Shown: piece after piece, positions 2,919-20,205 of the stretch
How positions within the stretch are numbered: position 1 is the first letter of the stretch
Layout of the letters: every line of letters begins with the position of its first letter
Source: Phytohabitans maris
Lineage (GTDB): Bacteria > Actinomycetota > Actinomycetes > Mycobacteriales > Micromonosporaceae
DNA: 64,000 nucleotides
Assembly (NCBI RefSeq): GCF_031085175.1
Contig: NZ_JAVHUY010000005.1
Coordinates: 124,001 to 188,000 of the forward strand
Direction of reading: 5' to 3'
Program-made: the position numbers and the translations under genes
Notes under the pieces: generated by a model
The model's database searches: none
The model's input: only the letters and a program-made list of their open reading frames with translations
What the model was told of the DNA's origin: nothing

Positions 2919-5900
2919 GTAGACCTCCATCTCGTACAGGGAATAGCCGTAGGAGGTGGCCCGGCGGACGCCGACCATCCGCACGTAGCGCGCGGTGGTC
3001 GGGGTGAAGGCGTCGTTGTCGGTGCCGCCGTTGCCGGCGGCGGTTGACCACGCCGTGGTCCAGCTCGTCCCGTCGGTCGAGGTCTCGATGCGGTACGACG
3101 ACGCGTGCGCCGCCTCCCACCGGAGGATCACCCGCCCCACGGTACGAGCCGATCCTAAGTCGACGGTCAGCGACTGGTTGTCGGTCCACGAGCTGGCCCA
3201 CCGGCTGCCCGGGTCGCCGTCGAACGCCCGGGCCGCCACGTGCGGCGACTGCGTGCCGGTCGCGGTCGCCGGGCGCCCCGCGGCCAGGTTGCCGATGTCC
3301 TGCCCGCGCCCGGCCGGAAACGACACCACCTGCTGGTACGTCGGCCGGTTCTGCCAGGCGATGATCGGCGAGGTGATGCCGCCGAGCGGTGAGTGCACGA
3401 TCGCGTCGGCGCACCACTGGTCGCCGGCCGAGCAGTGGTCGTCACCGGGGTACACAGTGGACGCTGGCTGGGCGGCGGCGGCCCGCAGCGTGTCGAGCAG
3501 CACCGTGCGGCAGGCGGCCAGGTCGCCGTTGCCGCAGTACGCCCGGCCGAGCCCACCCTGCACCGGCTCGCCGAGCACCCGACGGATGTCCTTGTCCACA
3601 TAGCCCCACCAGCCGTACTGGAAGGCGGAGCCCTTGTGCGGCTGCGCCTCGTTCGCCGATCCGGGGAAGCTGGACGTCTCACCGGTCTGGTGGCCGGAGG
3701 GCGACTCGTTGATCTGGATGGCGTTGACCAGCGACTGGTACAGGTCGGGGCCGAGGCCGGGCTTGAACTGTCCGCTCACGAGCAGCGGCCACCACGCGTC
3801 GAAGACCCGGATCGCGGCCCCGTGCTGGTACGCCTTCGAGCCGGCCGAGGTCTCCTTACGGGTGGCGCCGGCCTGCTGCCAGGCTTTCAGCTGGGTCACG
3901 GTGGAGGCGAGCGTGGCGTCGGTGACCGGCTGGCTCTCGATGACCCGGATCAGGTCGTCGAGCACCTCCTTGCCGCGCAGGTCCACTGTGGCCGCGTTCT
4001 CCACGATGCGTACGACGGCGGCCCGGTCCAGCTTTTGACCGGCGCCCAGCGCGGCCTTCACCGGCGTGTCCAGCAGTTCGCCCCGGTGCACCGAGCCGAA
4101 GCTGAAGTTGCCGTCCGCCGCCCCGAAGTCGCGGGCCTGCTTGTTGTTCCAGGAGACGTAGTAGTCCTGGCCGATCGACTGCGGGTGCGCGGCGGCCGGA
4201 GCGAAGCCGGTCCACTCGTACTGCGCGGCCATCGGCAGGTTGGGGTTGGAGCCGGCCGCCCGCACCGGGTTGCGCCCCGAGTTGAAGTACGCCGACTGGG
4301 TCGAGTTGACGTAGAACCAGTTGAACGCGTACTCCACGTTGGACGCCGCGGCGGCGAAGGCACTGGCGCTGCCCATCGCCGCCGGGTCGTTGAAGATCTG
4401 GAAGCCGATCGCCGAGTGCGCCTCCCGGCCGTACGTGGAGCGGCGCTGGGCGAACGCGTACGGCTGCCCGTCCACCGTGCCCCGCCAGGCGACCAGGCCG
4501 AGCGCGGTGCGCCAGGCGACGATGCGGTACGAGCCGGCGGGCGTGCCGTCGGCGACGGTGGGGTTCCAGGAGTTGACGTGCGACAGCTCCTCCATCGCCT
4601 TGCACTGTCCCTGGTGGAGGTACCGGTTGCTGGCGAGCGTCGGGGCCGTGCCGTCGGTCGTGCACAGCGGCAGCGCGTACGTGTCGGTGATGTCCTGGAT
4701 GGACGACGTGGCGCTCCACGCGTAGTCCTGGCCCCGGCCGAGCAGCACGTAGAGGCTGACCCCGGCGAACGCGACCCCCCGCGCGCTGATTCCGGGCCCC
4801 TGCAGCTCCTGCATGAGCAGCAGCTGCGGGGAGAAGTAGCCGGTCTGCGGCCCGAAGACCGCCACCGGGTGGCCCGAGGTGGTGTGCTGGCCGGAGATGA
4901 CGACCGCGTTCGACATGCCGCGGTGGGCCGCGCCGATGGACAGCTCGGAGAGCGCGACCGCGCCGTCCGTCGCCGACCCGGTCTGGTCCCTGATCACCGG
5001 CTCAGGCTGGACCGAGCCGGCGTCCGGCATCACCACGCTGGGCGCGTCGTCCGGCGCCGAGCCGTACGGGAAGCTCTGCCCGTCGTGGAGGGTCAGCACG
5101 GTCTCCGGGTCGTTCTGCGAGCGGAACGCCCGCCACACCGCGTCGCCCTCGGTCGGGCCGTACTTGGCGCGTGCGGCGATGCGGACCAGCGCGGACTGCA
5201 TCTCGCTGCCGCCGCCACCGCCGAAGAGCCCGCCGACGACGCCGGCGATGGCGATGAGGTCGGTCATCGTGAAGGGCTCCGGCCCGCCCTCGTTGGTGAT
5301 CGCGTCGAGGTGGCCGGTGAGCACGTACTCGCCGGGGCAGTTGCGGCCGGCCATGCACGCGGAGATGTAGGCGTTGACGCCGGCGATGTACGCCTCGACG
5401 TCCGAGTGGAGCTGCTCGCCCCGCGACCCCTGCTGGCGCAGCGCGGCGACCTGGGCCTGGAGGTCGGCCTCGGTGTACGGCGAGTTGCGCCAGACGCTCT
5501 GCTCCAGCGCGCGGTTGCCGGGCGCGCCGCCGGCGAACGGGGTGAGCGTGCCCCGCCCGACGTGCCGCAGCAGGTCCATGGTGAAGAGGCGGTCCTCGGC
5601 ACCGGCGTACCCGGCCCCGAACATCGTGCCGGACCGGGTCGTGCCGGTGATGTGCGGCGTGCCGGTCGCCTTGTCCCGCACCACGGTCACGTCGGCGCGC
5701 GGCTGGTACGTGCGCTCGACCTGCCCGGCCGGGACGCCGAACGAGGCGTTGTTGAAGTAGCTGCCGATCTGGCCGTCGGTGAGCCCGGCGTAGTTGTAGA
5801 CGAGGTTGGCGTACTCGTCGATCTGGTCCGCCGAGTGCGCGGGGCGGGTGCCGAGCGCCTGGTGGGCGAGGATCTCGACGAGCGTGGCGTTGCCGTTCTG

Positions 5901-17811: not shown

Positions 17812-17858
17812 GTGATCGAAGCTCCCCCCAAGTCGCTAGAACGACCTGCGGGGGGGGT
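17812..17858. repeat. Degenerate copy of the 54-nt palindromic element
   Basis: GTGATCGAAGCTCCCCCCAA, then GTCG-CTAGAA-CGAC. The left arm matches the perfect palindrome at 33716-33769, but the right arm has decayed into CTG-C-G(8). The loop CTAGAA is the reverse complement of the loop TTCTAG in the other copy, so the two elements lie in opposite orientation. It overlaps the end of the SCO6045-like gene. Confidence 0.75.
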
Positions 17859-18269
17859 ACAGACCAGACGGGGGGGGCGGCGGAAGAGGCGGCTCAGGCG
17901 GCGGCGCGGGCGCAGGGCGGCCTCGCGCTCGGCCAGCTCCTCCGCGGCCGCGCCGGTCAACGGCAGGGAACGGGCCAGGGCCAGACCGTCCTGGAAGGAG
18001 CCCGCCGTGGGGCGGCCGCCGCCCCACTCGGCGAAGACCGCCGGCCACCTCGTGCCGAACGACGCCGCCAGCAGCGGCCAGTGCCGCGCCACCTCGCCGG
18101 ATCGCTTGCGCAGCAACGCCTGCCGTGCGATCTCGACGAGCCGGGGGTCGAAGCCGTCCGGGATCGGGGCGCCGGCGACGAGCGCGGCGACCAGGGCGGC
18201 CTGGCGCTCGGCGAGCGACCCCGTGGCGCCGCCTGGTGCGACCGGTGCGGTGCCGCCGGGGCGGGTCAT
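17836..18269 (-). CDS. SCO6045-like partner protein of DUF692, 3' end frame-uncertain
   Basis: Starts at ATG 18269, overlapping the DUF692 stop (ATGA). The first ~120 residues (LAERQAALVAALVAGAPIPDGF, IARQALLRKRSGEVARHWPLL, FAEWGGGRP) match the C-terminal domain family of Streptomyces SCO6045, a regular neighbour of DUF692 genes. By analogy with partner proteins of other MNIO enzymes it may bring substrate to the oxidase; that is inference. The terminus is odd: after RRRLSRLFRRPP the strict frame has no stop until 17352, deep inside the next gene. A one-base change in either of two 8-G tracts (17850-17857, 17870-17877) moves it to a TAG at 17836. The end given here assumes such a shift. Confidence 0.65.
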
Positions 18270-19267
18270 GTCACGACCGGGTAGCCGGAGGCGGTGGCGA
18301 TCGCGTCGAGCTCGGTGCGGAGGGTGTCGGCGGGCGGGTAGTGGCCGTCGCGTTCGAGCATCAGGGCCGGCGGGCGGTGCCGGGCGCAGAGCTCGGTGAC
18401 CAGGTCGAGCACCTGCGGCGGTACGGCGTCCGTGTGGGTGTCGTGGTAGACGCCGTCGTGCTCGGCGCCACCGGCCACGTGGACGTACGCCACGCGGTCC
18501 AGCGGCAGCCGGTCCAGCAGGTCGGTGGGCTCGGTGCCGCGGTTGCGGGCGTTGGCGTAGACGTTGGCGATGTCGAGCAGCAGCAGCGCGCCGGTCCGGT
18601 CGAGGATCTCGGTCAGGAACGCCGCCTCGTCCAGCTCGTCGTCGGGCCAGTCGAAGATGGCGGCGATCGGTTCGAGCGCGATGGGGACCGGCAGCTCGGC
18701 CTGGGCGCGGGCGACGTTGGCGACCACGGCGTCGACCGCCTCGCGGCTGCGCGGGAGGGGGAGCAGGTGGCCCGCCTCGAGGCCGCCCGCCCGCACGAAC
18801 GCGATGTGCTCGCTCACCAGCGGCGCGTCCAGCTGCCGCGCGGCGGCGGCGAGGTGCGCGACGCGGGCCGGGTCGACGGGCTCGGCGCCGCCGAGGGAGA
18901 GCTTCACGCCGTGCGGGATGACCGCGGTGCCGGCGTCGCGCAGGGCGGCGAGGGGAGCCGGCACCGGCCCGGAGGCCGGCACCGACTCGGCGATCACCTC
19001 GGTGAAGCGGAGGCCGGGCAGCGCGGCCACGAAGCCCGCGATCTCCGGCCGCCACCCGATCCCAACCCCGAAGGCGCCATCCCCGCCGAAGGCGCCGCCC
19101 GCGCCGGAAGCGCCACCGCCCGCGGCGAGACCGCCACCCGCACCGGAGGCCCGACCCAGCCCGGACGAGCCAGCCATGGCCGGCAAGGCGGCTGGCCCGG
19201 GGGACGCGGCCGGGTGCGACGCAGCGCGCGGGCCGGATGCGCCACCGGCACCGGAGGGAACGGTCAT
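18266..19267 (-). CDS. DUF692 family multinuclear non-haem iron oxidase (MNIO)
   Basis: 333 residues. The first ~65 are Gly/Ala/Ser-rich low complexity; the TIM-barrel DUF692 domain begins at GVGIGWRPE. Candidate metal ligands typical of the family are His119 (IPHGVKLSLGG), Glu153/His154 (VSEHIAF), Glu199 (ALEPIAAIF), Asp232 (LLLDIANVYANARN), His263 (YVHVAGG), His275/His278 (YHDTHTD) and Glu305 (LMLERDGHY). Known relatives (MbnB, TglH and others) use two or three iron ions to modify cysteines in peptides. Both ends overlap neighbours by 4 bp, so it is translationally coupled to an upstream membrane protein ending in a Cys/Gly tail and a downstream SCO6045-like protein. The tail is the obvious candidate substrate. 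Confidence 0.88.
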   Translation of the reverse strand: MTVPSGAGGASGPRAASHPAASPGPAALPAMAGSSGLGRASGAGGGLAAGGGASGAGGAFGGDGAFGVGIGWRPEIAGFVAALPGLRFTEVIAESVPASGPVPAPLAALRDAGTAVIPHGVKLSLGGAEPVDPARVAHLAAAARQLDAPLVSEHIAFVRAGGLEAGHLLPLPRSREAVDAVVANVARAQAELPVPIALEPIAAIFDWPDDELDEAAFLTEILDRTGALLLLDIANVYANARNRGTEPTDLLDRLPLDRVAYVHVAGGAEHDGVYHDTHTDAVPPQVLDLVTELCARHRPPALMLERDGHYPPADTLRTELDAIATASGYPVVT

Positions 19268-20205
19268 CCGCCGCAGCCTCCCCCGCAGCCGCCGCCACAA
19301 CCGCCGCCGCCACCGCACGAGCTGCCGCCGTCGCCACCGCCGGAGCTGGAGCCGCCGGAGTCGCCGCCCGAGCCGCCGTAGTAGCCGCCCGTGCCGGCGG
19401 TCGAGGCGTACTGGCGCTGGATCTCGGCCTCTTCGGCGAAGGCGGCGTCCGCCTGCCAGAGGGACGCGGCGCCGTACAGGCCGACGCCGAGCGCGAGCCC
19501 GGCCGCGCCGTACGTGGCCCAGGCGGGGGTCATCGAGGGGGCGAGGTAGGTGTGCTGGCGGCGCAGCTCGTCGAGGGCCCGGCGGGCGGCGCGGGTGCGG
19601 GTCGGGATCGTGCGGAAGACGATGAGCGTGACCAGGGCCCAGACGATGGTCAGCACGACCAGGTAGCCCACCGGCTTGCCGCCCGCGATGCCGGCCACCA
19701 GCCGCACCACGCCGAGGCCGAGCAGCACCAGCATCAGGAACGGCACCGCCCGCGCCGCCTGCCGCGTGCCCTCGCTCGGGGCGAGGCCACGCCGCTCCAG
19801 GTCGTCGCGGAGGGTGGTGAGCGCCATCCGCACCCACTGGTCGCCGTCCACGTCGCGGGCGCGGACGCGCTGGCCGGCCGCGTTGTACACGGCTTGGTCG
19901 AGCGGGGTGGCGCCGGCCGGCATCGGGCCGGACGCGGTGAGCGTGCGGCCGGGGCCCACCTCGATCGCGCCGGCGGCCCGGAGGCCGGCGAGGGAGGAGT
20001 AGACGGCGAGCCGGTCGCCGCCGTTGAGGTAGGCGACCTGCTGCGGTCCGAGCCGGTCGACGGGGGTGTGGTGGCCGGCGAAGAGCACGGCCCGGTGGAT
20101 CAGCGCGGCGATCACCAGCGCGACCGCGGCACCGGCGAAGATCGCCAGGAAAGTGGGCCCGGGGATGCCCCAGGTGTCGCCCTGTGCGGCGAGAACCGTC
20201 TCCAT
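19264..20205 (-). CDS. TIGR04222 membrane protein with Cys/Gly-rich C-terminal tail
   Basis: 313 residues. Four hydrophobic stretches are visible: FLAIFAGAAVALVIAALIH near residue 20, FLMLVLLGLGVVRLVAGIA near 155, YLVVLTIVWALVTLIVF near 182, and YGAAGLALGVGLYGAASLW near 233. A cytoplasmic-looking domain between the first two (LGPQQVAYLNGGDRLAVYSSL) is the TIGR04222 hallmark. After about residue 265 the protein becomes Gly/Ser-rich and ends in a tail with cysteines at 297, 303, 307 and 311 (SSCGGGGGCGGGCGGGCGG). Such a tail beside an MNIO resembles a peptide substrate fused to a membrane anchor. The start ATG lies 22 bp after the acnR-like stop, so the whole run may be one transcript. Confidence 0.85.
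   Translation of the reverse strand: METVLAAQGDTWGIPGPTFLAIFAGAAVALVIAALIHRAVLFAGHHTPVDRLGPQQVAYLNGGDRLAVYSSLAGLRAAGAIEVGPGRTLTASGPMPAGATPLDQAVYNAAGQRVRARDVDGDQWVRMALTTLRDDLERRGLAPSEGTRQAARAVPFLMLVLLGLGVVRLVAGIAGGKPVGYLVVLTIVWALVTLIVFRTIPTRTRAARRALDELRRQHTYLAPSMTPAWATYGAAGLALGVGLYGAASLWQADAAFAEEAEIQRQYASTAGTGGYYGGSGGDSGGSSSGGGDGGSSCGGGGGCGGGCGGGCGG

Follow-up and report, generated by a model that had tools for sequence, protein, structure and literature searches.

A Cys/Gly-rich C-terminal tail as the putative substrate of an MNIO (DUF692) and its partner in a TIGR04222 operon, and its recurrence on unrelated proteins

The window, a 64,000-nucleotide stretch of Phytohabitans maris DNA, encodes on its minus strand a TIGR04222 membrane protein, an MNIO (DUF692) and a short third protein, in consecutive genes with ATGA overlaps. 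From the comparison of such loci, we consider it probable that the MNIO, aided by a partner protein, oxidatively modifies the Cys/Gly tail of the membrane protein made from this operon. Antoine et al. (2025, PMC12452194) have already put forward the hypothesis that MNIOs act on the Cys-rich C-terminal tails found in a subset of TIGR04222 proteins, and the new observation here is that the same kind of tail occurs on unrelated proteins beside the MNIO-partner pair. A preliminary description of this DNA had likewise taken the tail as the likely MNIO substrate, with a partner gene alongside, and the comparison of loci, rather than chemistry, lends support to that proposal.

The TIGR04222 membrane protein (313 aa; 19264..20205, minus strand), the putative substrate scaffold, was identified from its open reading frame and the NCBIfam profile TIGR04222, with 159 bits against a cut-off of 43. 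Its Gly/Ser-rich C-terminal tail (19267..19392, minus strand), as read from the translation, is ...GGSSCGGGGGCGGGCGGGCGG, with four Cys at residues 297, 303, 307 and 311 and a CGG end, and the pattern C-x5-C-x3-C-x3-C-GG reproduces exactly the spacing given in the preliminary description. The MNIO gene (333 aa; 18266..19267, minus strand) overlaps the preceding gene at 19264-19267 and the third gene at 18266-18269 (both minus strand). The DNA letters at both junctions are ATGA and the first two families are confirmed by profiles, and thus the operon with 4-bp overlaps described earlier is borne out. The 9.87-Mb host genome contains one TIGR04222 match and one MNIO match.

The assignment of the MNIO is based on the open reading frame, Pfam, NCBIfam and conserved columns. 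The catalytic domain starts from residue 67/68 and matches Pfam PF05114 with E=1e-78 and 264.7 bits against a cut-off of 25, while the NCBIfam BufB profile gave 181.9, under its cut-off of 310, so that the enzyme does not qualify as a BufB equivalog. Beyond the catalytic region, it has no Pfam or NCBIfam match. The window MNIO keeps H53, H88, N118, E133, D166, N169, H197, D210 and H212 (numbered along the matched segment). These nine His/Glu/Asp/Asn columns, which we take to be the metal ligands, are present in all 64 of the MNIOs that have both the third domain and the tail, in an analysis from which three of the 107 MNIO rows, shorter than 120 aa, were left out. A D-T-H sequence occurs in 60 of the 64 tail-associated MNIOs, with D-S-H at that place in 21 of the 25 without a local tail. 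With the start codon inferred from the ATGA overlap, the window MNIO begins with about 67 residues of low-complexity Gly/Ala/Ser/Pro sequence ahead of the catalytic domain (19067..19267, minus strand). The locus of Phytohabitans flavus (L221), the nearest named MNIO with 96% identity to that of the window, has no room for such an extension if its MNIO starts after the TIGR04222 stop, because no more than about 12 codons separate that stop from the MNIO domain.

The third gene starts at 18269 on the minus strand, and a profile HMM delimits a complete conserved domain at 17898-18224, so that the segment from start to domain end (17898..18269, minus strand) represents a candidate DUF2063-like partner (PME-type 2). 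The gene had been described as ending at 17836, which does not hold, since its frame has no in-frame stop there and stays open to 17352, beyond the start of the next minus-strand frame (17770). The stop at 17836-17838 belongs to another frame and lies near two 8-base G runs, and the P. flavus orthologue stops 11 residues past the domain. This open end may reflect a real extension, an assembly indel or a natural frameshift. The name 'SCO6045-like', given earlier to the third protein, was also not upheld, as no Pfam or NCBIfam family matched the protein at E<=1. SCO6045 itself is a DUF692 protein. It is among the entries of an RNA-Seq table in a study of the HbpS-SenS-SenR redox system (PMC4991794).

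We searched for the partner domain within 1.5 kb after each MNIO, using an HMM grown from the third gene. As a result, the domain was found after 90 of the 107 MNIO matches of a class sample (described below), 45 of them in one open frame with the MNIO (30 in family f21 and 15 in f20), while the other 45 have a frame of their own; a shared frame here means that no stop lies between the two, and it may contain a second start. All 80 of the named loci (the best 80 of 566 by MNIO) contained the domain, as did 68 of the 69 regions having both MNIO and TIGR04222. The exception, L153, gave no partner match at E<=10, and the second MNIO locus of its genome has a partner. The third gene fits the description of PME-type 2, in that it follows the MNIO and the DUF2063 signature is absent: PF09836 (DUF2063) matched neither the third protein nor, at E<=0.001, anything in the host genome. 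When 167 third domains were aligned with four DUF2063 proteins by hhalign, the score of 23.3 exceeded the highest of 30 column shuffles (16.2), at a probability of only 5.3%. The alignment of A3 alone with the four proteins was no better than 20 shuffles, a reverse search with an HMM of the four retrieved no third domain below E 0.4, and a search of PDB sequences with the third-protein profile returned no match. PF09836 was weakly detected in two of 43 third-domain members (best 0.018) and at 0.0023 in L219. These scores and that of the wider hhalign alignment are weak but point towards DUF2063, of which the third domain is a candidate relative. In L066 (genome G038), a TIGR04222 Cys tail runs in frame into a partner-like piece (3276-4292; E 0.0008), as if an intervening MNIO had been lost, and the same genome has a separate MNIO-partner locus, L187.

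We searched the host genome with a DNA pattern that requires two Cys-Gly-Gly units close together and allows TGC codons only. The pattern gave 20 matches in the 9.87 Mb and was not enriched, with 51 matches in a reversed control. Among the 18 matches read as far as a stop, that of the window was the sole Cys/Gly C-terminal tail, and the matched letters of the remaining two are identical to those of two that run into a stop after CGG. In the tails of the class sample, Gly follows 274 of the 337 Cys and Gly or Ser usually precedes, with a loose Cys spacing of 2 to 45 residues (mode 5). The CGG end recurs in 58 of the 68 Cys tails of the named loci (best 80 of 566; three loci have two tails). By charge bias, a rule of thumb, the TIGR04222 tail was assigned to the outside in 48 of 62 proteins, with three equal and 11 opposite, and we therefore predict that it lies on the outer side of the membrane; PMC12452194 also places TIGR04222 tails there by prediction. 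The TIGR04222 proteins furthermore share a conserved N-terminal GDTWG-like segment. Five loci (L109, L113, L144, L147 and L174) carry two tandem TIGR04222 genes after the MNIO, with a Cys tail on the first and none on the second.

The class sample comprised 394 genomes, with TIGR04222 over the cut-off in 106 and an MNIO in 94. TIGR04222 and PF05114 occurred together in 78 genomes, TIGR04222 only in 28, the MNIO only in 16 and neither in 272, as raw counts that ignore kinship. We examined 160 regions, around 134 TIGR04222 and 107 MNIO matches; TIGR04222 rows below the cut-off were left out, as were, among the MNIO rows, two short fragments of a split gene (G198:C116). A C-terminus counted as a Cys tail if its last 45 residues included at least three Cys and at least 22 Gly/Ser, and two of the 134 TIGR04222 rows were dropped for want of a closed C-terminus. 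By this filter, 63 of the 132 closed TIGR04222 proteins bear a Cys tail, and 62 of these belong to genomes with an MNIO plus partner. A same-strand MNIO lies within 3 kb of 55 of the 63, and seven are not adjacent to an MNIO and have the MNIO plus partner elsewhere in their genomes. The 63rd protein (G079) is next to an MNIO start truncated by the end of the contig, and the same protein is the only exception among the TIGR04222 proteins of MNIO-match-free genomes, 28 of 29 of which lack the Cys tail.

Among Gly/Ser-rich tails, the Cys tail was present in 62 of 70 where the genome has an MNIO plus partner, and in one of 11 (G079) where the pair was not found. Nine of these 11 have no Cys at all in the last 30 residues, the two exceptions being G079 and G183 (a weak match of 51 bits whose end is not tail-like). 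Since Cys-free Gly/Ser-rich tails thus occur in genomes in which no MNIO plus partner was found, it is Cys, and not Gly, that tracks the enzyme. Counted by genome, 65 of the 88 with MNIO plus partner show a Cys tail in the stretches read around the matches, with the open-ended Cys tail of G340 and eleven loci with other scaffolds added by hand; G038 and G128, among the other 23 genomes, have tail-like ends that fail the filter. An independent-pairs tree test covered 103 of the 132 rows (bits >=60), leaving out 29 rows under 60 bits, and had little power, with 3 to 4 starred pairs and a median p of 0.5. In these pairs, the tail went the same way 1.5 times on average and the other way 0.0 times (once in 200 pairings).

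The named set consisted of the 80 loci nearest to the window's MNIO, the best 80 of 566 in an MNIO alignment, and was filtered with at least 20 Gly/Ser in the last 45 residues. TIGR04222 was present in 69 of these 80, the other 11 being eight contig-cut loci and three from Rhodococcus, and a Cys-tail TIGR04222 protein was present in 65, with eight of the 15 misses contig-cut. Four TIGR04222 loci failed the filter: the tail of L233 lies in another frame, L249 lacks one, that of L296 has two Cys, and L299 contains a run of N. Virgisporangium has TIGR04222 and no tail. The three Rhodococcus loci (L289, L294 and L298; two viewed) have an MNIO plus partner without TIGR04222 or a filter-passing Cys tail, and the gene upstream in L289 encodes an AsnC/Lrp-type regulator. 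Cys-less tails in most homologous loci, which the preliminary description had named as evidence against its proposal, were not what we found, as Cys tails are present in 65 of the best 80 of 566 and in 64 of the 89 MNIO-partner loci of the class sample.

The tail is also found apart from TIGR04222. In eleven MNIO-partner loci where no TIGR04222 match exceeds the cut-off, a Cys/Gly tail is borne by another protein; nine of these loci have short anchors with one hydrophobic segment and about 85 to 120 residues including the tail. The other two encode a soluble-looking protein of about 450 aa upstream of the MNIO plus partner (L207, 4379-5734; L216, 2017-3444). A Pfam scan of two anchors and the two soluble proteins matched no family. 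In a tree of 90 MNIOs built by a quick method, the anchors fall at two places, one of which consists of three loci on long branches, and charge bias, again as a rule of thumb, put the anchor tail inside in all six checked of the nine. The sections of PMC12452194 consulted here do not describe one-helix anchors or soluble proteins with such a tail. We tentatively suggest that the Cys/Gly tail could be a portable modification tag, such that one MNIO-partner pair would modify any carrier and lineages would have moved the tail among TIGR04222 proteins (outside), anchors (predicted inside) and a soluble protein. These MNIOs would then act on proteins of both membrane sides, not only on secreted peptides, and fusion of the tail to any carrier would be sufficient for modification. 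If true, the tail would offer a straightforward means of equipping a protein of choice with a modified and perhaps metal-binding group.

The filter detected no local Cys tail in the remaining 25 of the 89 MNIO-partner loci. Their MNIOs keep the conserved columns (24/24 or 25/25 of the rows having the column), and decay of the enzyme in these loci was accordingly rejected. Seventeen of the 25 form one starred clade from genus g28 of family f21 (e.g. L071, L143 and L150), which we take to be Streptomyces, and their MNIOs adjoin a tailless TIGR04222 protein or none. Because these loci have no local tail yet retain the conserved columns, the enzyme of this clade should have another substrate, or one encoded elsewhere in the genome. 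In each of five loci of the clade that were viewed, there is an upstream gene with a similar end, and the two such genes scanned both match peptidyl-tRNA hydrolase PTH2. A PTH2 gene is also present in cluster II of PMC12452194, where that paper found no precursor.

The tailless loci bear on the alternative that the tail stays unmodified, as a thiol-rich segment that binds metal or forms disulfides, while the MNIO acts elsewhere and the genes are merely co-inherited. The 25 of 89 loci, 17 of them in one clade that keeps the conserved columns, speak for this alternative, whereas the genome-wide tie of Cys tails to MNIO plus partner, which includes the seven non-adjacent cases, and the recurrence of a similar tail on other, unrelated scaffolds next to the MNIO-partner pair make it unlikely. 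The tail on anchors and soluble protein, with no TIGR04222 match in the region, also argues against the TIGR04222 part or a recognition segment as the substrate and the tail as a by-stander or leader-like docking region. The conserved GDTWG-like segment would suit such a role, but the absence of the Cys tail from 28 of the 29 TIGR04222 proteins in MNIO-match-free genomes leaves this idea little credit. Least probable of all is an artefact of composition, by which the Gly-rich tails of GC-rich genomes would drift to Cys via one base change. Gly and Cys codons are indeed one base apart, and the spacing is loose (2 to 45, mode 5); nevertheless, nine of the 11 Gly/Ser-rich tails without the pair in the genome have no Cys in the last 30 residues, and the only Gly-rich tail with at least three Cys in MNIO-free genomes of the sample is that of G079, beside its cut MNIO.

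For modification of the tail by the MNIO, we envisage that the third protein, as partner, would present the tail to the MNIO iron site in the cytosol, where several of its Cys would be oxidised, probably to heterocycles of the thiooxazole kind. Anchored by the TIGR04222 helices, the modified tail would then sit on the outer membrane surface of the cell and would there most likely bind a soft metal such as copper. Since the TIGR04222 tail is predicted outside, modification would precede or accompany export, and we regard modification of the tail at this stage as quite likely. The earlier suggestion of a modification made in place at the membrane fits poorly with this topology and with an MNIO that has no Pfam or NCBIfam match past its catalytic region. 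By analogy with characterised systems, the chance that the product is a Cys-derived heterocycle seems about even, and that the modified tail handles metal is a more doubtful possibility.

In those systems, MNIOs convert EGKCG units to thiooxazole, and copper binding has been reported (PMC13097082, PMC13419390). The tails described here resemble bufferins, oxazolin and fontiphorin, which are made by an MNIO plus PME-type 1 (PMC12452194, PMC13097082, PMC13419390), in having several Cys with Gly after Cys. However, bufferin-type precursors have Sec signal peptides and their partners carry the DUF2063 signature, whereas the putative substrate here is a multi-helix membrane protein and the window's third protein is without that signature. 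Membrane-anchored precedents are the MerC-bufferin fusions, with the bufferin domain outside (PMC12452194). An artificial HvfBC fusion with MNIO and partner in one chain was highly active (PMC13419390), and MNIO and partner domain similarly share one open frame in 45 of 90 sampled loci.

The closest counterparts are the TIGR04222-MNIO clusters of PMC12452194, which are alike in family, Ser/Gly- and Cys-rich tail, neighbours and substrate hypothesis. PME-type 2 proteins accompany at least 10% of the TIGR04222 clusters in that paper, and many clusters are apparently partnerless, whereas here the partner domain was found in nearly all sampled loci, in half of the class sample within one frame with the MNIO. 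The paper also models a PME-type 2 partner of 158 residues from Micromonospora matsumotoense. The third gene of L234 (M. matsumotoense DSM 44100) has 158 codons (4798 to 5271, from the ATGA-overlap start), and the two are matched by species and length only. The adjamnio-I family of the same paper (122-293 residues with 8-21 Cys, followed by an MNIO and PME-type 2) could overlap with our short-anchor or soluble tail proteins. If the proposed modification is true, whole proteins would join the established MNIO substrates, and substrate, enzyme and partner would be defined for a group whose partner and modification are left open in PMC12452194. The same-frame MNIO-partner genes and the short anchors would be convenient material for study.

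Finally, a phylum-wide sample of 296 genomes, some from the same class, gave 11 over the TIGR04222 cut-off and 15 with an MNIO. One genome of another class (G405; L306/L327) has TIGR04222, MNIO and partner, with a Gly-rich, one-Cys tail ending in CGG, and in another (G419; L305, also of another class) the TIGR04222 tail is cut by a contig end. The TIGR04222 genes of both L305 and L306/L327 sit at contig ends.
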